Below, piece after piece: positions 3,115 to 16,011 of a DNA stretch of 20,561 nt (positions are counted from its first letter, which is position 1; each line of letters begins with the position of its first letter). Made by a program: the position numbers and the translations under genes. Origin of the DNA: Sulfurimonadaceae bacterium (GTDB lineage Bacteria > Campylobacterota > Campylobacteria > Campylobacterales > Sulfurimonadaceae); NCBI GenBank assembly GCA_030610325.1, contig JAUWRZ010000001.1, positions 1-20,561 on the forward strand. Direction: 5' to 3'. Below the pieces are notes generated by a model. The model was not told where the DNA came from. It saw nothing but the letters and a program-made list of their open reading frames with translations, and ran no database searches.

Positions 3115-6100
3115 ATGGATCACCCTAATATCTTTGGATCGACCCATAAAAACACACATTTAAGACTCTTATCTCTCTTACTCATGTTCTTAGCGACACT
3201 CTCATCCGCGACAATACTTGAAGTCAGGGTATCTGATGACAATGATGATGCAGAGGAGACTATCGCAGATGGCAGTATAGACCGAGGCAGCAGCGACCTT
3301 GAACTAGTCTATGATGGTTCCACCGGACAGGCAGTAGGTATAAGGTTTAAAAGTATCTCTATTCCCAGAGATTCCAATATCACACAGGCTTACATACAGT
3401 TTACTGTAGATGAGATAGACTCAAAAGATACCGATGTACTTATCTATGCAGAAGAGACAGACGATGCTTCAGCATACTCCTCGACCGACTTGGATATCAC
3501 CAGCAGAGCAAAGACATCTGCATCGGTTCCCTGGTCGATCCCGGTATGGGGCAGCAAAGGCACCTCAGGAACAGACCAGAGAACGCCTGACCTGACTGCT
3601 CTCATCCAAGGCGTAGTCAATAGAAGTGGCTGGAGTAGTGGGAATGACATAGCCTTTATCATCGAAGCTGGGTCAGGGTGTTCGTCCAGAGATTGCCAAA
3701 GGACAGCAGAGTCTTATGATGGGTCTGCTTCTCAGGCACCTCTGTTGCATATCGAATACACCTCTTCAGGAATAGATGACAGCTGTGATGACACACTTGA
3801 TACGAGTACAAATGATAGTTGTCCGGGAACTGTCATCACATTTCTAGATGGGGTGACGACTGACACGACAGGCTGTATTACCGGTTCATCTGAGCCTAGT
3901 GATCCAGAGTTCTACAAGTTTACTGCCGGTACCCACGGGACCCTTGATCTGACTACGTCTTCGCCAAACGATCATGATTTTCATATGAGCGTAGGGACAA
4001 GCTGTGATGGAGAGGAACACTACCCAGACACAACTGCTCAGAGTCACCTCATACCTACTATAGCACTCTCCCCAGGTGAGACGATCTACTTCTACGTAAA
4101 AGAGACAGGCAGTGATACCGATGAGTATAAGATCGACTTTGATTTCACACTAGCCCCCTTTGCTGCTAATGATGACACTGCCAATGTAAACTCTAACAGC
4201 AGTGTCACCATAGCTATTTTAGATAATGACTCACCCGGACAAGGGGAGATGATCGATACAGGAAGTGTCATCATGATCACCGATCCGACAAATGGTAGTG
4301 TAGTCATCAATGCTGACGGTTCTGTAAACTATACTCCAGATACTGATTTTGGAGGTTCAGACTCCTTCACCTATACCGTTGATAATAGTGCCGGAACTAC
4401 TTCAAATACTGCCACAGTCTCAATAGATATAGGTCTTTCCGGTGGCGAGCGGGATTTTACGGTCCGTAATCCCCTCGGGACCAGGAACATCATAGGTAAC
4501 TTCAAGATCGGCGGAAACATCAACTTATGTGCGACTTCAAGTACAGGCTATCCATGGTCTGATGGTTGCAAGAGCTCTCAGGACCTCTCTAACAGTACGC
4601 ATTCAGTCTATGTGGATGGCGATAGTGATGCATCCACGGTAAACTCATCGAGTTTTGAGCTGGACCTGGCAGCAGGTTCCGAGGTAGTATGGGCTGGGCT
4701 TTACTGGCAGGGGCATCTGCACAATAGCGATGAGAGTAAAGACTTTATGGATGATGAGACTATTAGCGGTGCTCCTGAGTATGACAGTGGCAGAAAGGGG
4801 CTTGACCTCTCTGTCAATAGCTACGAAGCAGAGAAAGTCCTCTTTAGCATAAAAGGTGAGGCTTATCAGGAGGTGACAGCCACTCAACTTGATTTTGATG
4901 GATTAGGCTATGGCGGATTTGTCGAAGTCACCTCTTTGTTAGACCTGAATGACCCAAATGGTGTCTACTGGCTGGCTGATATCAAGTCACATCAAGGTAT
5001 GGAGAGTGATCACGGTAACTTTGCAGCATGGTCACTGGTCATCATCTACTCCAACCCAAATGAGGAGTATAGAAACATCACCCTGTTTGATGGTTATACT
5101 ACTGTCGACAGCGGCTACTCGAGAGATCTTGTCATCGATGGTTTCCTGACTTCAAAAGTCCCTCCTATCGAGTCAAAACTGGCATTCTTCTCACTTGATG
5201 GTGATGGCGGGACCAACTCTCTCACCGTCGTCAGTCCCTCTAAAGGTGCGACTCAAGTATCTGGTCCAGATAATCCCGCCGACTCTCTTTTTAATTCGAC
5301 TATCCAGGGGGTGAACAACAGAGTCCCCGACCATCCAAGTCTCAGGCTTGACCTAGATATACTTGAACTCACCGATGTACTAGGTCCTTTTGAGACCAGT
5401 GCGATCTTACAGCCTCGTACGACCGGTGACCGTTACACAGCCTCTTACTTCATCATGTCGACACAACTCTATGTGCCAAAGTTCTGTTATGACTACTCTT
5501 ATCAACAGAACAACCGATTCTTCACCGAGGACAACAATGGTACATCAGCACCATTTATAAGTGGGGTCGTCGATACCGATTCAGATGTGACTGTCAGCAT
5601 CTATATAAGAAATCAGGAGGAGACTGATATCACAGCTGAGGACCTGACCATGGATATCAATGATATCAATACCTCGATGGCGACTTATGTACCTGACTCG
5701 GTCGAGATCACCTTTCCCAATGAGGTCATCCCTTTTCCCATCTTAGACAGCGCTCTATCGGTAGGAAATGCGGCAGGTATGGACTATATCCATGATATCG
5801 CACTTAGTGATATCGATGGGACTGAATCTATCTACACCTACTATAAGATAAGACCGACAAGCAATGAACTAAACATCTCCCTTGATATAGAGATCACCTA
5901 CACAATGATCTTCACCGATGCCTACGGAGGGACAGCACCGATGACCTACACCAGTATCCTCGGCGGTCCTGAGTTCCCTATGTGTACCGGGGCAAACTTC
6001 TCGTACGACCCACAATGGAGTATCTTCAATGTCGTTGACACCGAACTTTACGACCAATATTCAGCCTATACCATACCGACTCAAGTCGCTAAACGTCCTA

Positions 6101-8421
6101 CCAGTTTTGATGTAGTCTCATTTGACCCCGATGCTGTCAATACAGAAAAACATGTCACTTCACTGGTGGGTATTGAACTTATCGATGCGGGAGCTTATCA
6201 TGATATCAATGCTTCCTGTAATGAGCCCTCTTCCGCCATCAGTCCCCGCGTCTGGGTCTTTTTTGATGATAATGGGACAAAGAAGTCTTTTGACTCATCC
6301 GTCATAGACCTAGCTATCAAAGATGGATACGTCTCCGATCAGGTCTTCAGCCCTGGAGCCTCGACAAATATCAAAAGTGCTGCAGATTTCTATGCACATG
6401 CAAGAGAGAACGTAGCATTTAGAGTCGTCTATAATGTCCATAACGACAGCAATGAGAGTCTGCTTCAAGTCATCCGTGACCCCAACGATCCAAAGTATAT
6501 TCGAATCGACAACTTTTCCAACCTGACTGATACATATGGTAAACATTGTAAGCAACTCGTAAAAAATCCTAATAATAATGTCCTGACAGACCTGGTCGCT
6601 ACTGCCTGTTCTAACAATGGTAACAATAGCACTGAGGTAGACCTTGCGATCTGTATGGAGTGCCTATTTGGTTATAACACCCGCTATATCTGCTCACGAG
6701 ATAACTTCTCTATCCGTCCTGAGAGTTTCAACATCAAGCTTAGTGATGGGACAAAAGATGCCAATGCGACTACAGCAGTCAGCTTTGCTACTGATCATAC
6801 CGGTGTTCAGACTCCGGTAGTCGGACAAGTCGATATGGCTTCCGGGTACCCCTATCGATTTGATCTAAACTCGACCAGCCATATAGACAATAGTGCGACA
6901 CCAGGATATACCCGCTCTTTCACGCCTGTCTTTAGTGATGACAATGCCACCTTCGTATGGTCTCCAGGCGATCCTGGCGCAGTAGCAGCTAACTGTAATG
7001 ACACAAACTCAAAAGAGCAGATAGTCGACTTTGTGAATGGTATCGCACGTACAGATCTCAATGTCACTCAGGTGGGTGAGTATCTGTTTCAGATCGTCGA
7101 TTCTTCCTGGACACAAGTCGACTGGGACCCAGACTTTCGAAGCCATCATCATGAAGGGGGCGGAACAAATGATGCCTATTTCATCGATGGAGCTGATTGT
7201 GTGATCGGCAATAGTGATGTCCAAAGCAGTGCACAAGCCACTAGTTCAGGTACGACCTTATATTACAACGGCTGTTTGATAAAAAGCGAGCATACCAACA
7301 GTGATGCAGACCTGCTCTATAAGGATTATGATATTCTCTTCCATCCATATACCTTTGATCTCTCCGATATCGATGCATCTTACGGTGTAGGTGCGAACCC
7401 AGATCTTACCAATAGCTGGCTCTACATGAACAACATGGCCGATGATGATGCCAACCAATCGTTCCACCTGCGTGGCGATATCGCAGCCATCAGTGCTGAT
7501 GGTACCACTTTAAGCAATTTTGTCAGTGGCTGCTACGCCAGAGATATCAAACTGACTCTTGAGAACAATGCACCGGCATCTGCTTATCCGGATGTACCTG
7601 CACATACTTATAGGTTCTTTGATACAAATGCGACAGATATATTGGCTGATATCAACAGTACTTTGACCAGCACTGGCTCACTGCTTACACTGACAGACGG
7701 AAACTTCACAAAGAGTATGGCTGGTGTGACGACTATCGACCTCAACAGTAATTTCACCCGTGAAGTCAACAATAGTGTCAACCCGTTTACGGTCACCTTC
7801 GGAGACTTCGATATTGCATGTGACGACCCCCTTGAGTGTCAGATGCAAGCCGATCTTGATAGCTCTTTTCTCCCGGAAGGAAACCTGACACTCAATTCCA
7901 GTCTCACCTACTATTACGGCAGAGTCCATGCTCCACGTTACCGTATCAATGACAGTACTGGTACAGTAGACCTCTACTATGAGATCTACTGTGATCCCAA
8001 TACCAACATCAACCCTTGCCAGATAGGTAATCCTACCGATCACAATGTCACCATCCCCAACCGCATCCTGAGTATCGATGATATCCGATGGTACAGAAAT
8101 GAAGCACACACTTCTGAGGTCGAAGGTGATATCAATGCTTCCCTTCCACCCCGAGGTATCGATGATCTGACAGTAAACAGCAGAGTGGCATATGATCAGG
8201 CGACTTTTACTTATGATGAGTCCAAAGGGTACCCTTATAAGACCAAGATACAGGTACCTTCTGACTCTTGGCTTATCTATAACAAGTTCGACGCTGCCGC
8301 AAGGGTCAATTTCTTTGAACTCGAGTTCAACAGTGCCGGTAGTGTCGCCGGTAAGCACATCGGTGTCAGCAGCTCTGACTCCAACGCCTCCATAAATACT
8401 AACAGGAGAATACAGTGGTAA
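3115..8421 (+). CDS. Giant secreted tip-adhesin-like protein 1 (1768 aa, MshQ/PilY1-type context)
   Basis: I infer a surface or pilus-tip adhesin; no enzymatic motif is seen. A signal peptide ends near SSA (residue 32). Residues 36–216 form a β-sandwich module of secreted proteins (DDAEE, SSDLEL, QRTPDL, GWSSGN, AESYDGS). A pre-peptidase-C-like β-domain (about 220–347) and a cadherin/Ig-like repeat (349–440: AILDND, NADGSVNYTPDTDFGGSDSF) follow. Next is a module with NIIGNFKIGGNI, WAGLYWQG (526–533), AAWSLVIIY and RNITLFDG, a pattern known in secreted repeat proteins. Residues 781–1768 match the C-terminal region of the next gene. They include a CMEC cluster (1180–1183), CSRDNFSIRPESF and YYYGRVHAPRYR, faintly like MshQ/DUF6701. 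Twenty D/E-X-N-X-S/T sequons are present. GGAG lies 5 nt before the ATG. The gene has its own promoter and precedes its paralog by 243 bp. Confidence 0.8.
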   Translation: MDHPNIFGSTHKNTHLRLLSLLLMFLATLSSATILEVRVSDDNDDAEETIADGSIDRGSSDLELVYDGSTGQAVGIRFKSISIPRDSNITQAYIQFTVDEIDSKDTDVLIYAEETDDASAYSSTDLDITSRAKTSASVPWSIPVWGSKGTSGTDQRTPDLTALIQGVVNRSGWSSGNDIAFIIEAGSGCSSRDCQRTAESYDGSASQAPLLHIEYTSSGIDDSCDDTLDTSTNDSCPGTVITFLDGVTTDTTGCITGSSEPSDPEFYKFTAGTHGTLDLTTSSPNDHDFHMSVGTSCDGEEHYPDTTAQSHLIPTIALSPGETIYFYVKETGSDTDEYKIDFDFTLAPFAANDDTANVNSNSSVTIAILDNDSPGQGEMIDTGSVIMITDPTNGSVVINADGSVNYTPDTDFGGSDSFTYTVDNSAGTTSNTATVSIDIGLSGGERDFTVRNPLGTRNIIGNFKIGGNINLCATSSTGYPWSDGCKSSQDLSNSTHSVYVDGDSDASTVNSSSFELDLAAGSEVVWAGLYWQGHLHNSDESKDFMDDETISGAPEYDSGRKGLDLSVNSYEAEKVLFSIKGEAYQEVTATQLDFDGLGYGGFVEVTSLLDLNDPNGVYWLADIKSHQGMESDHGNFAAWSLVIIYSNPNEEYRNITLFDGYTTVDSGYSRDLVIDGFLTSKVPPIESKLAFFSLDGDGGTNSLTVVSPSKGATQVSGPDNPADSLFNSTIQGVNNRVPDHPSLRLDLDILELTDVLGPFETSAILQPRTTGDRYTASYFIMSTQLYVPKFCYDYSYQQNNRFFTEDNNGTSAPFISGVVDTDSDVTVSIYIRNQEETDITAEDLTMDINDINTSMATYVPDSVEITFPNEVIPFPILDSALSVGNAAGMDYIHDIALSDIDGTESIYTYYKIRPTSNELNISLDIEITYTMIFTDAYGGTAPMTYTSILGGPEFPMCTGANFSYDPQWSIFNVVDTELYDQYSAYTIPTQVAKRPTSFDVVSFDPDAVNTEKHVTSLVGIELIDAGAYHDINASCNEPSSAISPRVWVFFDDNGTKKSFDSSVIDLAIKDGYVSDQVFSPGASTNIKSAADFYAHARENVAFRVVYNVHNDSNESLLQVIRDPNDPKYIRIDNFSNLTDTYGKHCKQLVKNPNNNVLTDLVATACSNNGNNSTEVDLAICMECLFGYNTRYICSRDNFSIRPESFNIKLSDGTKDANATTAVSFATDHTGVQTPVVGQVDMASGYPYRFDLNSTSHIDNSATPGYTRSFTPVFSDDNATFVWSPGDPGAVAANCNDTNSKEQIVDFVNGIARTDLNVTQVGEYLFQIVDSSWTQVDWDPDFRSHHHEGGGTNDAYFIDGADCVIGNSDVQSSAQATSSGTTLYYNGCLIKSEHTNSDADLLYKDYDILFHPYTFDLSDIDASYGVGANPDLTNSWLYMNNMADDDANQSFHLRGDIAAISADGTTLSNFVSGCYARDIKLTLENNAPASAYPDVPAHTYRFFDTNATDILADINSTLTSTGSLLTLTDGNFTKSMAGVTTIDLNSNFTREVNNSVNPFTVTFGDFDIACDDPLECQMQADLDSSFLPEGNLTLNSSLTYYYGRVHAPRYRINDSTGTVDLYYEIYCDPNTNINPCQIGNPTDHNVTIPNRILSIDDIRWYRNEAHTSEVEGDINASLPPRGIDDLTVNSRVAYDQATFTYDESKGYPYKTKIQVPSDSWLIYNKFDAAARVNFFELEFNSAGSVAGKHIGVSSSDSNASINTNRRIQW
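5455..8421 (+). repeat. Tandem gene duplication, copy 1 (shared C-terminal region)
   Basis: This part encodes residues 781–1768 of the first giant, homologous to residues 533–1526 of the second. Conservation rises towards the 3′ end: about 80 of the last 100 residues are identical without gaps, and the final 80 nt differ at only a few sites. The promoter regions are also related, so the duplicated unit included upstream DNA. Confidence 0.85.
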
Positions 8422-8664
8422 TACTGTCTCTTGAGAAGTGCTACTTTAAAGATATAGCATCTACTATTTATTTAACATTATTTAATAATTAAGAATCTTA
8501 TTAGTTCTTAATAGATATGATTGAGTATTGTAGTGACAATAAGGTGGGTGGTTGGGTCGCACATATCCTGCGTTTCTTTACAGCTATATAAGATCTATAA
8601 GTGACCCACACAGATAAAAGCCTAAAAATTGCACTTCCCTGATTTTCAAGAGTAGGAGGCGATC
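8422..8664 (+). promoter_or_regulatory. Promoter P2 and long leader of the second giant gene
   Basis: Bases 8477–8521 match 2975–3018 almost without gaps: ATTATTTAA, then TTAAGAATC (8489–8497), then a −10 TATGAT (8516–8521). One extra base lies between box and −10. TGGGTGG (8545–8551) sits 29 nt after the −10 start, exactly where TGGATGG sits in copy 1. The leader is about 137 nt long. It carries a G-rich element and competing stems (separate entry) and ends in AGGAGG five bases before the ATG. A weak stem at 8436–8461, followed by a T-rich stretch, may end the upstream transcript. Confidence 0.5.
8543..8609 (+). promoter_or_regulatory. G-rich element and alternative stems in the leader
   Basis: GGTGGGTGGTTGGG (8543–8556) has four G-pairs or triplets with 1–2 nt spacers, enough for a two-layer G-quadruplex. 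Downstream ACCCAC (8604–8609) can pair perfectly with GTGGGT (8544–8549). Alternatively, GTGACCCA (8601–8608) can pair with TGGGT-CG-CAC (8553–8562) with a 2-nt bulge. These structures exclude one another. I recognise no known riboswitch class; a regulatory role is inference. Confidence 0.3.
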
Positions 8665-11600
8665 ATGCGCTTTTTCATACCTTTTTTCTTCTTTTTATCC
8701 CTTACTTACACTTTAAATGCTGTTGATTGCGGTGGTAGCGATATCAGTGTACCATCAACAACAGCAGATGATGTCAGAGGTACTAAAGCTGATGATTACT
8801 ATATCCCTGTTGGATCAGTCATAGATAACGGGACTCTGACAGTCACCCTTTCAAACGATACGACTACTGATGCACTCAACTTCTCGATCGGTGATACGAC
8901 CTGCCCGGACAACAGTGATGGTAGATTGACGTGGACAACTAGTTTCTCAGCCACAGACGAACTAAATATCCATGTCTATAATACGATGGGCGATCTTACT
9001 CATACCTATGACTATACATTGACTGTTGAGTTCACTCCATCACCTTTAGGATGGCAAAAAAGCGCTGCAGACACGGCTCCAGCTAACTCTGCGATAAACA
9101 TGGATATCGATGCTGACTTCAAATTGCTCTTTGGTGGTGCCGGATACAGTATCTTTGGTGATATCGGTGCGACTGGAGACAGTGTCCTTTATGTCAACGA
9201 TCCCGACACAGATAATTATGGTGGTGCACTTTACGACTCTGTTGCCCAATACATGACTAAAGATGCTACTTTCAATACTACGACCTATACAGGTGGGGAT
9301 GCCCGAAAGGCCAACTCTTCCACGGCGACACTGGCGCTGCCCGATCATGTCGAAGGAAAACATATCGCCTGGGCAGGACTCTTCTGGCAGGGTTATGTCA
9401 TGAACGACTTTGGTGCTGGCATGACGATCGATGATGTAGACAAAGACATCACAGGATGGAACAACGTCACGATGAAGACTCCTGATGGGACGATGCACCA
9501 ACTCACGGCATCTCTGACTCTAAAAGACAATACTCAATCAACTTACCATTACTCACTAAAAGATGACAACAGCTATCGCCATTTCTATGGGGCTTATGTA
9601 GATGTGACTACCCTGGTAAAAAACAGCTACTCCGCTACTGATGATCTCTTTACTGTCGGAAATATCCTGACTAATGATGGAGAAGACACTAGTGCCTATA
9701 TGTATTTCTCCCACATCGGTGACGGTGAGTGGTATGATAACTTGGTAATGGGTTATTTCGGAGGATGGTCACTGATCGTCGTCTACAGCCTTGATGCAGC
9801 TACCATCACCACAAATACTACCGATATGAAGAACATCTCTATCTATAACGGGTATGACCTATTCCTTACCTGGGGAGTCGATGGGACAGCCTTTGAGACT
9901 ACCGTGACGCTCGATGGTTTTATGACACCAAAAGCTGGGGAGATAGACAGTAGACTTCTCTTCTTCGGAGGTGGTGTAGACCAGGGGATCTTCGATGACA
10001 CGTTACAGATACAAGATGGCAACAGCACTACTTATGTCGATCTGGCAAATGGTACCAATCCCGCGAGTAAACAGTTTAACAGCTCCTACACCGAAGACGG
10101 GGTCCACATGAACCCTTCCAAACCATACCGTCAGGGAATGGACCTTGATATCTATGATGTCTCGGATATGATGACGACTGACCAGTCAGAGACAAATATA
10201 AGATTTGGTGTCGTAAAAGACAATGGTGCTTGTGATCAGATCTTTCCCCAGGTCCTGGCCTTCTCTACTGAACTCTACAGACCACGTTTTTGCTACGACT
10301 ACTCATACAGTCAACATGGCCGCTATTTTACCGAAGATAACAATGGTACAAAACCCCCATCACTCACGGGTCTGGTGACCCCCAGTGAGGACATCAGACT
10401 GAGTCTCTATGTCAGAAGCGATGAGGATGCAGATATCACGGCCAGAAACCTGACAATGGATATCACTGACATCAACACTACTCAAGCGACTTACATCCGA
10501 AATAGCGTAGCCATCACCTACCCGGGAGAGATCAACTCTACAGCCATACCGGATGGGACAGATGGTATGATAGTATCCGACAGTGATATCCTCAACATCC
10601 CTTTTGGAGATGTGAATGGTACACAGTCTATCTATAGCTACTACTCTCTCTTGCCAGACCTGGATCTGATGGAGATGCCGATCAATGCTGAAGTGACATA
10701 TGACATCACATTTCCAGACGCTAACGGTGATCCCTTCAACCTCACCTATACCAGTGTCCTTGGTGATCATGACTTTCCACTATGTACCGGGGCGAACTTT
10801 ATGTATGAGCCTAAATGGAGTGTCTTTAATGTAGTACAAAGTGACATCTATGACCCATTATCCGGTGCGCAGTACTACAACATCCCTACCCAGGTCACCA
10901 GACGGCCGGGAAGCTTTGATCTTGTCGCTTATGATGCAGACGATGTCAACACTGAGCTACATGTAAGTACGATGGTCGGCGTAGAACTCATCGATGCAGG
11001 GGCTTATCATGACATCAATGCATCATGCTATGAGCCCTCATCTGCCATCACTACCCGTGTCTGGGTCTTCTTTGAAGGTAATGTCACCAGAACCCCTTTT
11101 GACAGGGATGCCATACAAAAAGCAATAGATAACGGTTTTGTATCTGACCAGATCTTCAATCCCGGAGGAGCAGATAACCTGACCGTAGCCGAAGACTTTT
11201 ATAAAGAGGCAAGAGAGAACACTGCCTTTAGGATCATCTACAATGCGTTACCTGATATCAATGGTTCTCTGGTGGATGTCCAACCCGGTACTAAAGATGG
11301 TATGATCACTATCGCCAACTTTCCTGAACTGCATCAGCTCTATCCTAAGTGTAAACAGTTGGTCAAAAACCCATTAAATACGACCATGACTGACCAGACG
11401 GCGGTAGCCTGTTCAAATGCAGGAAGCAATAGTACCCATGCCGATCTTGCCATCTGTATGGAGTGTCTCTTTGGTCTAAACTCCAACGTCTTATGCTCAA
11501 GAGACAACTTTGCGACTAGACCAGAGAGCTTCAACATCACCTTGAGTGATATGACAAAAGATTCCAATGCCTCGGCACCACTCCCTTTTGCTACCGACCG

Positions 11601-13245
11601 GACTGGGGTCGCATCACCCTCAACCGCCAAAGTCCATCTATCCAGTGGATACCCCTACCACTTTAGTGTGACCGCGACCAACCACTACAGCAACGTGGCT
11701 TCTCCCGGCTACAACCATACCATCACCAATACACTAGAGGACAATGCCTCCTTTGTCTGGTCTCCAAGTGATCCGACAGCTGCTAATGCCAACTGTAATG
11801 ACCTTGATGATGTAGCTCAGACAGTCTCCTTTTTACAAGGTAGTGCCGGAGTCGACCTCAATGTCACACAAGTAGGAGAATACCTTTATAAGATGACTGA
11901 CTCCACATGGACAAAAGTCGACTGGGATCCAGCATCTATGAGTCACCATAACAACAGTTACTTCTATGGCTACAACTCAGGTGAAAGTGGGACTCCGGCA
12001 AAAGATTGTGCCCAAGACCAATCCACAGTGCCTACATTTGGAGCGGTTGCTACGGCCGGTACATATAACGGTTACGCAGCTTTAAGCAATGTCAGTGGCT
12101 GTAAGATCAAGAGCGAGCACACGAACAGTGATGCCGGTCTTGTCTACAAAGACTACGATATCCTCTTCCACTCCTATGAGTTTGATCTCTCTGATATCAA
12201 CGCCTCTTATGGTGTCGGTGAGAACCAGGACTTCACAGATGCCTGGCTCTATATGAACGACCTTGTCGAAGATGCCAACCAATCCTTCCATCTTCGTGGC
12301 AATATAGCCGCTGTAAGTGCTGATGGCAAGCCTTTAAGCAATTTTGTAGATGGTTGCTACGCCCAGGACATCAGTCTTACACTCTCTAATAACGCTCCGG
12401 CCTCTGCCCTTCCTGATGTACCAGCCTATATCTATCGTTTTCTGAATACTGACGGCACCAATATACTGGCCGATGAGAACGGTACTTTGACAAGTACAGG
12501 CGTGTTGTTCACATTGACAGATGGGAACTTCTCCAAAGGGCTTGAAGGAAGGGCGACTATAGACCTTAACAGCAATTTCAGTCGTACCGCCAATAACAGT
12601 GTCAACCCTTTTACCATCACCATCGGGGACTTTGACACCAAGTGTGCTACTCCTTTAGACTGTCAGATGCAAGCAGACATGGCAGCTGATCATGAAGTCG
12701 ATGGGACCTTGGCTATTGACCAAAGCCTTCCTTACTACTATGGTCGTGTCCATGCTCCACGTTACCGTATCAGTGACAATACCGGGACAGTGCGTCTCTA
12801 CTATGAGGTCTACTGTAACCCCAATAGCACGGTAAACCCATGTCTCATCACTGATCCCACAGATCATAATGTGACCATGCCTAATCGTATCCTGAGTGTC
12901 GATGATATTCGATGGTATAGAAATGAAGTGCATACCTCCGGGGTCGAAGGTGATATTGAGACGTCCCTGATACCAAAAGGTGCTGACTACCTTGATAATA
13001 ATATAAGGGTAGCCTATGATCAGGCGACTTTTACCTATGACGAATCAAAAGGCTATCCTTATAAGACCACTATCACAATACCTACTGATCAATGGTTAGT
13101 CTATAATAAGTTTGATGCTACTGCTCGTATCAACTTCTTTGAACTCGAGTTCAACAGTGCGGGAAGTGTCGCCGGTAAACATATCGGTGTCAGCAGTTCT
13201 GACTCCAACTCTTCTAAAAATACGAATAGGAGGATCTCATGGTAA
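8665..13245 (+). CDS. Giant secreted tip-adhesin-like protein 2 (1526 aa), paralog of the preceding gene
   Basis: The phenylalanine-rich signal peptide is cleaved near LNA|VDC (residue 19). The head (20–125) is a small β-domain with Cys22 and Cys80, perhaps disulfide-linked, unlike the three-domain head of the upstream paralog. Residues 145–530 hold the secreted-module motifs DADFKLLFGGAGY, WAGLFWQG (236–243), GGWSLIVVY and NISIYNGY. Residues 533–1526 are the shared region: CYDYSY (543–548), DINASCYEPSSA (783–794), CMEC (931–934), CSRDNFATRPESF (944–956), YYYGRVHAPRYR and the terminal TNRRISW. Seventeen D/E-X-N-X-S/T sequons occur, about twelve at the same places as in the paralog. AGGAGG lies 5 nt before the start. 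The stop overlaps the first pilin gene by 7 nt, coupling the giant to the minor pilins. No transmembrane or wall anchor follows the signal, so the protein is periplasmic, surface or pilus-bound. The function is inferred from context. Confidence 0.8.
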   Translation: MRFFIPFFFFLSLTYTLNAVDCGGSDISVPSTTADDVRGTKADDYYIPVGSVIDNGTLTVTLSNDTTTDALNFSIGDTTCPDNSDGRLTWTTSFSATDELNIHVYNTMGDLTHTYDYTLTVEFTPSPLGWQKSAADTAPANSAINMDIDADFKLLFGGAGYSIFGDIGATGDSVLYVNDPDTDNYGGALYDSVAQYMTKDATFNTTTYTGGDARKANSSTATLALPDHVEGKHIAWAGLFWQGYVMNDFGAGMTIDDVDKDITGWNNVTMKTPDGTMHQLTASLTLKDNTQSTYHYSLKDDNSYRHFYGAYVDVTTLVKNSYSATDDLFTVGNILTNDGEDTSAYMYFSHIGDGEWYDNLVMGYFGGWSLIVVYSLDAATITTNTTDMKNISIYNGYDLFLTWGVDGTAFETTVTLDGFMTPKAGEIDSRLLFFGGGVDQGIFDDTLQIQDGNSTTYVDLANGTNPASKQFNSSYTEDGVHMNPSKPYRQGMDLDIYDVSDMMTTDQSETNIRFGVVKDNGACDQIFPQVLAFSTELYRPRFCYDYSYSQHGRYFTEDNNGTKPPSLTGLVTPSEDIRLSLYVRSDEDADITARNLTMDITDINTTQATYIRNSVAITYPGEINSTAIPDGTDGMIVSDSDILNIPFGDVNGTQSIYSYYSLLPDLDLMEMPINAEVTYDITFPDANGDPFNLTYTSVLGDHDFPLCTGANFMYEPKWSVFNVVQSDIYDPLSGAQYYNIPTQVTRRPGSFDLVAYDADDVNTELHVSTMVGVELIDAGAYHDINASCYEPSSAITTRVWVFFEGNVTRTPFDRDAIQKAIDNGFVSDQIFNPGGADNLTVAEDFYKEARENTAFRIIYNALPDINGSLVDVQPGTKDGMITIANFPELHQLYPKCKQLVKNPLNTTMTDQTAVACSNAGSNSTHADLAICMECLFGLNSNVLCSRDNFATRPESFNITLSDMTKDSNASAPLPFATDRTGVASPSTAKVHLSSGYPYHFSVTATNHYSNVASPGYNHTITNTLEDNASFVWSPSDPTAANANCNDLDDVAQTVSFLQGSAGVDLNVTQVGEYLYKMTDSTWTKVDWDPASMSHHNNSYFYGYNSGESGTPAKDCAQDQSTVPTFGAVATAGTYNGYAALSNVSGCKIKSEHTNSDAGLVYKDYDILFHSYEFDLSDINASYGVGENQDFTDAWLYMNDLVEDANQSFHLRGNIAAVSADGKPLSNFVDGCYAQDISLTLSNNAPASALPDVPAYIYRFLNTDGTNILADENGTLTSTGVLFTLTDGNFSKGLEGRATIDLNSNFSRTANNSVNPFTITIGDFDTKCATPLDCQMQADMAADHEVDGTLAIDQSLPYYYGRVHAPRYRISDNTGTVRLYYEVYCNPNSTVNPCLITDPTDHNVTMPNRILSVDDIRWYRNEVHTSGVEGDIETSLIPKGADYLDNNIRVAYDQATFTYDESKGYPYKTTITIPTDQWLVYNKFDATARINFFELEFNSAGSVAGKHIGVSSSDSNSSKNTNRRISW
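10261..13245 (+). repeat. Tandem gene duplication, copy 2 (shared C-terminal region)
   Basis: This part encodes residues 533–1526 of the second giant and pairs with 5455–8421. The spacing of conserved cysteines, the CMEC cluster and the terminal TNRRIxW are kept. Only this copy is followed directly by the pilin genes. Confidence 0.85.
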
Positions 13246-13955
13246 AGAACGCTTTTACCATGATCGAACTGATCTTTGCTATCGTCATCATCGGCATCGT
13301 CTCTGTCTCCATACCGACCATCATGGTGAACAACTCAGAGAACGTCGAGGTCAACCTTATGCAAGAGGCCATAATGATCGTCGCTACAAAGACCGGTCAG
13401 GTGCTGACTTACCCCTGGGATGAGAACAGCCGAGATCCTGTTAGCGGTACTCTGGCGAAGACCGATGCACTTAACATCGATGAGTTCTTCTTTGCTGGTG
13501 ATCTTGACCGGAATATCTCTGACTTCAGACGTGGTCATTTCCAACAGGCCCTTCGTCGTAAGCTCACCCCGGCAAGCGCAGAAAGAAGTGCAACAGCCTC
13601 TGGACTTTTGTCACTGGAAGCTCTTGACCTAAACATCAGTGATGACCTAGACGACTTTAATGGCCAGTCTACTCTTCTTTCCCATATAGGTGAAAGTGGC
13701 TATAAAAAAGACTACAATATAAGTATCAGTGTCATCTATGTCAATGATATGATCGATTATTCCACGGGGGGAAACACTCCGCTGGTCTTTAGTCTTAGCA
13801 AGACAGATGCCGGTCGTGCCACCAATATCAAAATGGTAGAGATCAATGTCAGAGCAAAAGACAGCACAGGTAACTGGCCACTCCTTCCCGATATACTTTT
13901 TAGAAGCTTTGCTTCAAATATCGGAGAGACTGATTACTATAAAAGGACCTACTGA
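13239..13955 (+). CDS. Type IV prepilin-like minor pilin 1
   Basis: The protein has 238 aa and a class III prepilin signal, MVKNA|FTMIELIFAIVIIGI. The leader is basic, cleavage falls before Phe, mature Glu5 is present, and a hydrophobic helix of about 20 residues follows. Ala rather than Gly precedes the cut, which is common in this phylum. The helix leads to a β-rich C-terminal domain from about residue 50. It is larger than most major pilins, so a minor pilin or pseudopilin (PilV/GspI/MshD-like position) is more likely. Three D/E-X-N-X-S/T sequons are present (N92, N132, N160). The ATG lies in the last codons of the upstream giant (ATGGTAA overlap, 7 nt), with AGGAGG (13228–13233) five bases before. 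Subfamily assignment is uncertain because the region after the helix has no recognisable motif. Confidence 0.85.
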   Translation: MVKNAFTMIELIFAIVIIGIVSVSIPTIMVNNSENVEVNLMQEAIMIVATKTGQVLTYPWDENSRDPVSGTLAKTDALNIDEFFFAGDLDRNISDFRRGHFQQALRRKLTPASAERSATASGLLSLEALDLNISDDLDDFNGQSTLLSHIGESGYKKDYNISISVIYVNDMIDYSTGGNTPLVFSLSKTDAGRATNIKMVEINVRAKDSTGNWPLLPDILFRSFASNIGETDYYKRTY

Positions 13956-13957
13956 TC

Positions 13958-14845
13958 ATGAGAAAAGCCTTTACAATGCTCGAACTGATCTTTGTGATCA
14001 CGGTCATGGGGATCATCGGTACCGTTGGTGCCAATGTACTGAGTGTCATGTATGAGAACTATATATCCAGTGCAGTCAACAATCAGATGCAGTCACAGAC
14101 AGAACTGGCCATGCAGCAGATAGCCAACCGGATGAGCAGTCGTATCAAAGACTCAGTCATCGCCGCCAATGATATTACGTTCCATGGCCTAAGTGATGCC
14201 CGTGATGATGTCAACTACACCCGGGTCGAGTGGATAGGTTCTGATAGTGACAGCTGGCTTGGCGATGCTGCCAGTACGGCTCCCGCATGGTCAGGGTTTA
14301 TCGATGTAGATAATAACAACACTACCAGACTGAGCTCACCCGGTTCAGACTTTACGACCAATGGACGTATTGATACAACTATACAGGCACTCTCCAATAG
14401 TGATATCACTGATGCTGCCATCTTCTTTATCGGGACCAATACCGATGTACAAAACGATTATGGCTGGAACGGTTCAGCATACAACATCAATGACACGGCC
14501 ATGCACCCAGTCGCAATAGCACCAAACACAGATGAGATCATACCGGCTGGCTACACCTTTTCCGGAGTGGATGTGTATGAGCAGTACAAGCTTGCCTGGA
14601 CAGCCTACGCCATCGGGATAGACCCCAATAATGACAACCTCTATCTCTACTATGACTACCAACCTTGGCAGAGTGAGGATTATGATGATGGTAGACAAGT
14701 ACTCCTGATGGAACATGTATCCACCATAAAAGCACAGGCCATCGGAGATGTCATCAAACTTCAGATCTGTGTCGATAACAACATCAGTGGGACTATCACA
14801 TCAGATGAACTTTACAGCATCTGTAAAGAGAAGGTGATATTTTGA
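13958..14845 (+). CDS. Type IV prepilin-like minor pilin 2 (GspJ/PilW/MshO-like)
   Basis: The protein has 295 aa. MRKA|FTMLELIFVITVMGIIG is a class III prepilin signal with Glu5. The following helix, SQTELAMQQIANRMSSRIKD (46–65), and the large β-domain resemble GspJ/PilW/MshO-type minor pilins. Those sit near the tip and bind the GspK-type subunit. C271 and C289 near the C-terminus could form a disulfide. There are three D/E-X-N-X-S/T sequons (N86, N120, N275). The gene starts 2 nt after the previous stop, and its own stop overlaps the next start (TTGA), so this is a tight operon. An AAGGA lies 10 nt before the ATG. Prepilin identity is clear; the GspJ/MshO subtype is inferred from size, order and the second helix. 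Confidence 0.85.
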   Translation: MRKAFTMLELIFVITVMGIIGTVGANVLSVMYENYISSAVNNQMQSQTELAMQQIANRMSSRIKDSVIAANDITFHGLSDARDDVNYTRVEWIGSDSDSWLGDAASTAPAWSGFIDVDNNNTTRLSSPGSDFTTNGRIDTTIQALSNSDITDAAIFFIGTNTDVQNDYGWNGSAYNINDTAMHPVAIAPNTDEIIPAGYTFSGVDVYEQYKLAWTAYAIGIDPNNDNLYLYYDYQPWQSEDYDDGRQVLLMEHVSTIKAQAIGDVIKLQICVDNNISGTITSDELYSICKEKVIF

Positions 14846-15321
14846 GGACTTATCAACATAACCGGCGCGCGATGGCGATGTTTGCCGCAATAGCCTTTTT
14901 ACTGGTCATGGCTACCATAGCAGGCTTGATGGTATCGATGACATCACTGACATCAAAACGTGGTGTCGATCTCTATTTTCAGGAGCAGGCACATCTTCTG
15001 GCAAAAAGTGCGACAGAGTATGCACTGTTAGCTATCTCCGGGCACAGCATCGCGACTACTGGAAACTGCATCAACTCTATTGACTCCTCGTATGACGGCA
15101 TCTATGATATCAATACTGAGATCCGCTACATAGGAAGTGGTTTTCCTACTACTGCCGGTGCATGTGATATGCTTCAATATGCCGGCGGGGGTGATATCAA
15201 TAATATTGTCACAGCTGAATCAAACGGCACTGTCATCATCGATGTCTACGTGACTGCCCCATCCGATGAGACCGGGGCTGAACGGGTACGTTTCCACCGC
15301 AGGACCATGCAAAAGCCATAG
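14842..15321 (+). CDS. GspK/PilX/MshP-like minor pilin without Glu5
   Basis: The protein has 159 aa. The chosen start is TTG at 14842, overlapping the previous stop by 4 nt, with AAGG about 7 nt upstream. It yields a basic leader, MRTYQHNRRA, before the hydrophobic helix MAMFAAIAFLLVMATIAGLM. The alternative ATG at 14872 would remove the leader. After the predicted cut, position 5 is Ala, not Glu. Lack of Glu5 is typical of GspK and known for PilX/MshP-type tip subunits. A polar segment, FQEQAHLLAKSATEYALLAI, continues the helix as in PilX. C76 and C108 may form a disulfide. One sequon (ESNGT) is present. As the last gene of the cassette it is a candidate tip initiator that links pilus and giant protein. 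Family assignment rests on helix pattern and gene order. Confidence 0.75.
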   Translation: MRTYQHNRRAMAMFAAIAFLLVMATIAGLMVSMTSLTSKRGVDLYFQEQAHLLAKSATEYALLAISGHSIATTGNCINSIDSSYDGIYDINTEIRYIGSGFPTTAGACDMLQYAGGGDINNIVTAESNGTVIIDVYVTAPSDETGAERVRFHRRTMQKP

Positions 15322-15468: not shown

Positions 15469-16011
15469 ATGAATATCTCACTGACCGGACGCCATGTCGA
15501 ACTAACTGAATCTATCAAAGATCATATGATGAGTTCTATCGATACCTTAAATAAATACAATCTCGATATCATCTCTGTAAATGCTGTCGCATCAATGCAG
15601 GAGCGCAAGGGAAAACGCGGTCTGACAATCGAGTTTACCATCAACCTCGCCAATAAAAACACCATAGTCATCAAACAGCGAGATGATGATCTCTATGCCG
15701 CGATCGATATAGCCATAAACCGGGCTCAAAAAGCCCTACGCCGACTCAACGACCGAAACAGTGATCACCGTAATAAAAGTGCAAACGAAGCTAAGATAGA
15801 AGCCCAGGGTGAGATCAATCTCAGTGAAGCACATGAAGCACTCGAAGATGAGATAGTCCCTGTAGAACTTGACCTCTATAAACCCAGAGAGACTGCTGAT
15901 GTACTTGAAGACCTCAAAGAGAGCAACAAGCAGTTTGAGATCTTCAACGACAATGACGGTAAGACCAGAGTACTCTATAAACGCAGCGACGGAAGATTTG
16001 GATTATACTAG
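15469..16011 (+). CDS. hpf: Ribosome hibernation promoting factor, long form
   Basis: The protein has 180 aa. It binds the 30S decoding site, and its C-terminal domain dimerises two ribosomes into an inactive 100S particle in stationary phase or starvation. The N-terminal S30AE domain covers residues 1–95: MNISLTGRHVELTESIKDHM, then DDDLYAAIDIAINRAQKALR. A variable charged linker spans 96–125. The C-terminal dimerisation domain (127–180) shows DEIVPVELDLYKPRETADVL and RVLYKRSDGRFGLY, which identifies the long form rather than short HPF or YfiA. AAGGAG lies 6 nt before the ATG. The gene stands alone behind a good promoter and converges with recG. One chance sequon (EINLS, 116–120) occurs in the linker. 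Confidence 0.95.
   Translation: MNISLTGRHVELTESIKDHMMSSIDTLNKYNLDIISVNAVASMQERKGKRGLTIEFTINLANKNTIVIKQRDDDLYAAIDIAINRAQKALRRLNDRNSDHRNKSANEAKIEAQGEINLSEAHEALEDEIVPVELDLYKPRETADVLEDLKESNKQFEIFNDNDGKTRVLYKRSDGRFGLY

Follow-up and report, generated by a model that had tools for sequence, protein, structure and literature searches.

Gene content of the locus

The window analysed here comprises 20,561 nt of contig JAUWRZ010000001.1 (GCA_030610325.1) from a Sulfurimonadaceae bacterium (Campylobacterota). It contains two large paralogous genes followed by three smaller ones, all on the forward strand. Giant 1 (P0001, 3115..8421) encodes 1768 residues and carries 20 copies of the sequon D/E-X-N-X-S/T (X not Pro). 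A Pfam search places a Big_9/cadherin-like domain at residues 347–437, and the C-terminal core (5470..8418, forward strand, residues 786–1768) holds 19 of the 20 sequons. Giant 2 (P0002, 8665..13245; 1526 residues, 17 sequons) is without any Pfam domain in the same search. Its C-terminal core (10273..13242, forward strand, residues 537–1526) holds 16 of the 17 sites; in both paralogs these sites lie within the C-terminal ~990 residues. The two giants are 50% identical overall and 61% identical in the core.

Downstream follow pilin-like protein 1 (P0003, 13239..13955, 238 residues) and pilin-like protein 2 (P0004, 13958..14845, 295 residues), each with a prepilin motif and three sequons, and a PilX-like protein (P0005, 14842..15321, 159 residues) with one sequon. 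P0003 and P0004 exceed the cut-off of TIGR02532 (22.5 and 18.7 bits, cut-off 16.3) and stay below that of the Pfam N_methyl model (20.3 and 15.7, cut-off 21.2). The label PilX-like was given from position and the N-terminal hydrophobic segment only; family searches with P0005 gave no match, including none to pilins. The next gene, hpf (15469..16011, forward strand; ribosome hibernation factor family), encodes a cytoplasmic neighbour that served as control and contains a single sequon, which is put down to chance.

Export was called by a simple hydropathy rule. Four of the five proteins pass, giant 1 among them. Giant 2 lies just under the cut (1.88 vs 1.9) and has, as judged by eye, a signal-like stretch at its N-terminus.

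Giant 2 is 24–26% identical overall to the gene at the same place in the sister species (L040, 11045–15655). Giant 2 is closer to giant 1 than to this copy, which we read as paralog conversion, replacement or independent duplication. Both end (8380–8418 and 13200–13242) in TNRR followed by one to three residues and a tryptophan at the extreme C-terminus. The strict pattern recurs in 33 of 79 loci from the best 80 of 121 relatives, and some Sulfuricurvum giants have a YDYTPATR terminus in its place. This tail might serve in docking or as a secretion signal.

Sequon counts in the window

The first-pass annotation had listed 44 sequons in the five proteins (20, 17, 3, 3 and 1), its position numbers being those of the Asn, and a script count agrees to the residue. 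The mirrored motif S/T-X-N-X-D/E occurs once, at residues 33–37 of P0003, and the flanking frames contain one sequon, in hpf; both had been noted before. These translated flanks comprised hpf, the proC ORF, recG, an M16 peptidase, mqnC, a bamD-like gene and part of lon (2395 residues) together with a 139-residue ORF at 1733–2152.

Composition alone had been considered insufficient to explain the count, and shuffling bears this out. Shuffled versions of the locus gave a mean of 6.54 and a maximum of 16 sites, and none of 5000 reached 44, which is about seven times chance. For the giants, which contain 6.8 and 7.3% Asn, composition shuffles gave means of 3.2 and 2.5; the real counts were reached in 0 of 2000 of these and in 0 of 1000 shuffles preserving dipeptides. 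The N-terminal parts of the giants are at chance level, with one site each (1.22 expected in giant 1, 0.82 in giant 2). The small proteins alone are weaker: their counts of 3, 3 and 1 were reached in 9, 19 and 196 of 2000 shuffles. Because the pilin counts in this genome are only mildly unusual, the case for the pilins rests on the relatives.

An alignment of the two giants recovers all 12 sites previously described as shared and adds a thirteenth (1053 in giant 1, 806 in giant 2). Since these 13 sites are common by descent, the giants are not independent of each other, and it is the relatives that settle the matter.

Recurrence in related loci

The best 80 of 121 relatives were kept, yielding 79 loci. 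Some genomes are represented twice, and the loci overlap the genome set described below (L161, for example, is the same as G001); neither the sets nor the loci are therefore independent. By record names the giant family occurs in Campylobacterota (Sulfurimonas, Sulfuricurvum, Sulfurospirillum, Sulfurovum, Hydrogenimonas, Nautiliaceae and others). Among the 79 records, L220 has a 12-sequon giant on a contig labelled as a Thermoproteota archaeon MAG, possibly through a binning error.

The giants of the 79 loci (best 80 of 121 relatives) carry 1384 sequons where 202.7 are expected, compared with 149 mirrored motifs, and the excess is at least 3-fold in 78 of the 79. Sulfurospirillum cavolei UCH003 (L167), a cultured relative, has 25 sequons in its giant and a full STT3. 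The N-terminal parts are at chance level in the relatives too; 17 of the 79 loci were left out of this split only, as they have no boundary motif.

Downstream of the giant, 57 of these 79 loci (best 80 of 121 relatives) encode two pilin-like proteins (~220 and ~300 residues) and then a PilX-like protein (~160 residues). In these full-order loci the first pilin-like slot contains 143 sequons (18.1 expected), the second 141 (19.3 expected) and the PilX-like slot 93 (7.4 expected), an enrichment of 7- to 13-fold. The fourth gene is an hpf homolog in 35 of the 57 loci and has 1 sequon in total, with 6.5 expected. This count covers the 35 of 36 loci that match hpf, because an extra pilin in L217 shifts the slots (all 36: 3 vs 6.7). 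No other single argument for a role of export is as strong as this lack of excess in hpf, directly beside enriched exported products. In these loci, as in the window (15469–16011), hpf lies on the 3' side of the pilin genes, a conserved linkage.

The rule behind the motif

To describe the excess, positions of the motif were scanned in the 79 giants (best 80 of 121 relatives). At the centre, Asn is 6.4-fold enriched and every other residue at most 1.3-fold. At −2, Asp reaches 7.5 and Glu 3.8, all others at most 1.3; at +2, Ser reaches 6.1 and Thr 6.6, all others at most 1.1. Of 1393 sites, 4 have proline at +1 and 5 have it at −1 (53.6 expected each), while 463 of 9548 other Asn residues in the same giants are followed by proline. 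N-X-S/T without an acid at −2 occurs at chance frequency in the 79 loci (1759 vs 1703). Spacing is equally specific: among 29 homolog sequences the (−2,+2) arrangement is 7.6-fold enriched and no other exceeds 2.0, and the two giants of the window give 6.0 and at most 2.4. The excess therefore follows the acceptor rule of PglB, D/E-X-N-X-S/T with X not Pro, as the first-pass annotation had proposed. Read as a footprint of the enzyme, the pattern shows that these genera require an acid at −2, unlike the relaxed enzymes found in C. coli or Desulfovibrio (PMC4894442).

The homolog set comprised 31 sequences, with L025 (in-frame stops) and the duplicates L009 and L010 left out; 19 of the 31 were aligned for conservation. 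Their 316 sites are spread over 114 columns, none of which is occupied in more than 13 of the 19 sequences. The sequon Asn is slightly better conserved than other Asn residues (37.7% vs 32.1% of pairs). We take this shifting of sites between columns to mean that selection acts on how many glycans there are more than on where exactly they sit. In the predicted core of giant 2, 11 of 16 sequon Asn residues and 40 of 64 other Asn residues are in loops, which is no clear excess.

PglB and the pgl genes

A family search for STT3 found no match in the genome of the window, an assembly of 539 contigs that is 83% complete, and was positive in 54 of 60 relatives, one of them the sister species. In that species pglB adjoins five pglA-C-D-E-F-like genes and itself runs to a contig edge. 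Searching our genome with the DNA of this cluster led to contig C280 (84% identical), which contains pglF(part)-E-D-C-A-like genes. Its final ~210 bases encode the last 70 residues of PglB in frame. This PglB end and the pglA gene are 91% and 88% identical to those of the sister species. The check for pglB suggested by the first-pass annotation hence returned a pglB end, of which only the last 70 residues are readable, and a pgl-like cluster. As the gene leaves C280 at the contig edge, the simplest reason for the missing STT3 domain is a gap in the assembly, and the genome presumably carries an intact pglB.

The C280 genes take their names from the sister cluster, by gene order and DNA identity; the sister cluster was itself named from sequence. 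In family searches the genes correspond to a GT4 glycosyltransferase, a NeuD/PglB/VioB-type acetyltransferase (over the cut-off) and two products that stay below cut-offs, a phosphoglycosyltransferase-like protein and a LegC-type aminotransferase; the partial gene gave no match at E 1e-20.

PglB of the sister species has all three STT3/PglB domains and aligns over nearly its full length with C. lari PglB (5ogl, E 5e-168). It retains WWDYG, the catalytic motif of PglB, as well as arginines equivalent to R331 and R147. According to PMC4894442, both arginines are tied to recognition of the acid at −2, although R331 by itself does not decide specificity.

An excess that depends on PglB should vanish in genomes lacking STT3. 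Ten of the 79 giant-bearing loci (best 80 of 121 relatives) belong to genomes with no detected STT3, and nine of the ten are as enriched as the rest; so are the giants of the STT3-less G141 and G142. Draft-genome gaps, as in our own genome, are a likely cause. The exception among the ten, L209 (Helicobacteraceae isolate AUK043), has 3 sites in the giant where 2.2 are expected and 1, 0 and 0 in the pilins, and is the only unenriched locus of the 79. A homolog in the STT3-less, 99%-complete G057 has 4 sites (1.3 expected), the lowest ratio, with L017, of the 31 sequences. The distant homolog L260, whose genome has an STT3, shows no enrichment (2 vs 1.33); L261, called in a wrong short frame, was left out of the distant homologs.

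Sequons are also found in other exported proteins. A sample of our genome (38 contigs, 174 kb) contains 17 in exported proteins (8.2 expected) and 10 in cytoplasmic ones (14.3 expected). The corresponding exported counts are 11 vs 10.2 in the sister sample, which is chance, and 28 vs 21.5 in G016. The STT3-less G044 (31 vs 22.3) and G057 (14 vs 9.2) resemble the pglB-bearing genomes. The giants carry 11 sequons per 1000 residues, the exported proteins of our sample 1.4. Its next-densest large proteins are two adjacent lipoprotein-like proteins on contig C24 (L066, 1586–3877 and 4011–5750) with 5 and 6 sequons. High counts are thus limited to few proteins and the exported proteome is little enriched, which points to strong selection on a few large surface proteins.

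Probable pilus setting and predicted structure

Five places in our genome exceed the PF00437 cut-off for pilus-type ATPases. Two of these exceed the PilT/PilU cut-off, and three PilB/GspE-like ones remain below the equivalog cut-offs. The conserved giant–pilin–pilin–PilX-like order and these ATPases suggest a location of the giants at the pilus tip.

The PilY1 domain PF05567 is absent from P0001 and P0002 at E 0.1 and from all 13 members of homolog set A1 at E 0.01, so an assignment of the giants to PilY1 by Pfam is ruled out. A genome-wide search for PF05567 matched 0 of 60 genomes, a count that says nothing because the control genomes likewise gave no match.

An AlphaFold2 model of the giant 2 core (mean pLDDT 87) is rich in β-structure, with predicted β-domains of Ig-like resemblance. 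No PDB chain is a sequence relative of the giants at E 0.1.

Alternative explanations

One alternative is a chance motif arising from Asp/Asn/Ser/Thr richness or local residue bias. The giants are indeed rich in Asn, acidic and hydroxyl residues, which is where their expected 3.2 and 2.5 sites come from, but both types of shuffle and the mirrored motif already refute this idea, and the unenriched N-terminal parts of the same proteins, the avoidance of proline and the −2/+2 spacing speak against it as well. We consider it practically negligible. The motif might instead mark a structural or metal-binding loop (a calcium-binding D-x-N-x-S/T or a repeat), given that the giants are β-rich with Ig- and cadherin-like domains, in which Asp/Asn loops are common. 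Unlike in metal loops, however, the enrichment of Asp at the centre does not exceed 1.3-fold, and neither Asp nor Asn at +2 reaches 1. Ser and Thr are equal at +2, proline is avoided on both sides, the sites shift between columns, and the excess is shared by unrelated pilin-like proteins. Such loops are a highly improbable source of the pattern.

There are two further alternatives. The sequons could be relics, selected in ancestors of a lineage that has since lost pglB, and in our genome no STT3 domain is readable. Against this stand the in-frame PglB end and pglA on C280 and the fact that the gene leaves the contig end; moreover L209, which may be a true pglB loss, shows no excess, so that relics may fade. 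We judge this very unlikely. More weight is due to the view that the PglB acceptors are real and that the giants, as secreted or outer-membrane adhesins, are served by a type II-like pseudopilus with no pilus tip. The pilin-like proteins match general prepilin models only, and the PilB/GspE-like ATPases reach neither equivalog cut-off. Yet the two PilT/PilU-family ATPases suggest that the genome does encode a retractile pilus somewhere, and the gene order recalls the PilV/W/X–PilY1 set. A pseudopilus is, on balance, an unlikely arrangement, if one to be taken seriously.

Comparison with known systems

Most of what is known of N-glycosylation in bacteria concerns proteins of Campylobacter and Helicobacter, each of which has few sites. 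The locus shares with the PglB systems of Campylobacter jejuni, C. lari and Helicobacter pullorum the sequon without proline, the pgl gene set (pglB-A-C-D-E-F-like order in the sister species, pglA-C-D-E-F and the pglB end in our genome) and, in the sister PglB, the Arg331 and Arg147 equivalents. For C. jejuni, PMC6478998 gives 53 proteins as modified, with two sequons each in CmeA, B and C. Unlike in C. jejuni, single proteins here carry 17–22 sequons and pilin-like partners are targeted too.

PilV, PilW, PilX and PilY1 are encoded in one operon. As in the PilY1/PilC systems of Pseudomonas and Neisseria, a large exported protein is encoded beside genes with prepilin motifs; unlike PilY1/PilC, the giants are without PF05567, have a predicted Ig-like β-core and are heavily sequon-bearing. 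In PilY1/PilC adhesins the N-terminal part is variable and the C-terminal part conserved (PMC4471445). We think that the giants may act like PilY1 tip adhesins.

An acid at −2 is no part of the archaeal sequon, whereas the pattern found here requires one. Archaeal pilins and archaellins are type IV pilin-class surface proteins and N-glycosylation targets (PMC2952790). Gram-positive pilins and antigen I/II adhesins resemble one domain of a giant at 8–9% identity, with no match over the whole length. Searches of an open-access library, which lacks most subscription papers, turned up no account of a bacterial pilus adhesin N-glycosylated in this way.

Proposed mechanism and implications

The sequon patterns strongly support the view that the five proteins have been selected as PglB acceptors. 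We consider it likely that the operon as a whole encodes exported, multi-domain, adhesin-like paralogs together with three minor-pilin-like proteins, all of them substrates of the cell's own PglB and exposed by a pilus. In the proposed sequence of events, the giants and pilin-like proteins would be exported by Sec. In the periplasm, the inner-membrane PglB would transfer the glycan of the pgl pathway to the Asn of D/E-X-N-X-S/T. Most glycans would sit on the C-terminal, β-rich "stalk" of the giants and on those portions of the pilins that face the periplasm. A type IV pilus machine would then allow the pilins to carry or expose the giants, and the largely sequon-free N-terminal "head" of the giants would be free for binding. 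The sites are presumably occupied; the structure of the glycan, the adhesive function and a shielding or stabilising role of the glycans we likewise infer.

If the sites are used, we know of no bacterial protein with more N-glycans per molecule than the giants would carry. A large environmental group would then build heavily N-glycosylated surface adhesins together with minor pilins, and the reason for having the pgl pathway would become testable in non-pathogens. As a tentative generalisation, which we hold to be possible but rather doubtful, the chief client of the pgl pathway in free-living Campylobacterota may be a hyper-N-glycosylated pilus adhesin complex, consisting of a giant stalk with 10–30 N-glycans and the minor pilins. 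If true, this complex would be a bacterial counterpart of the stalks that glycans shield in surface proteins of animals and viruses, and the pilus adhesin would perhaps represent the original role of the pathway now called general glycosylation in Campylobacter.
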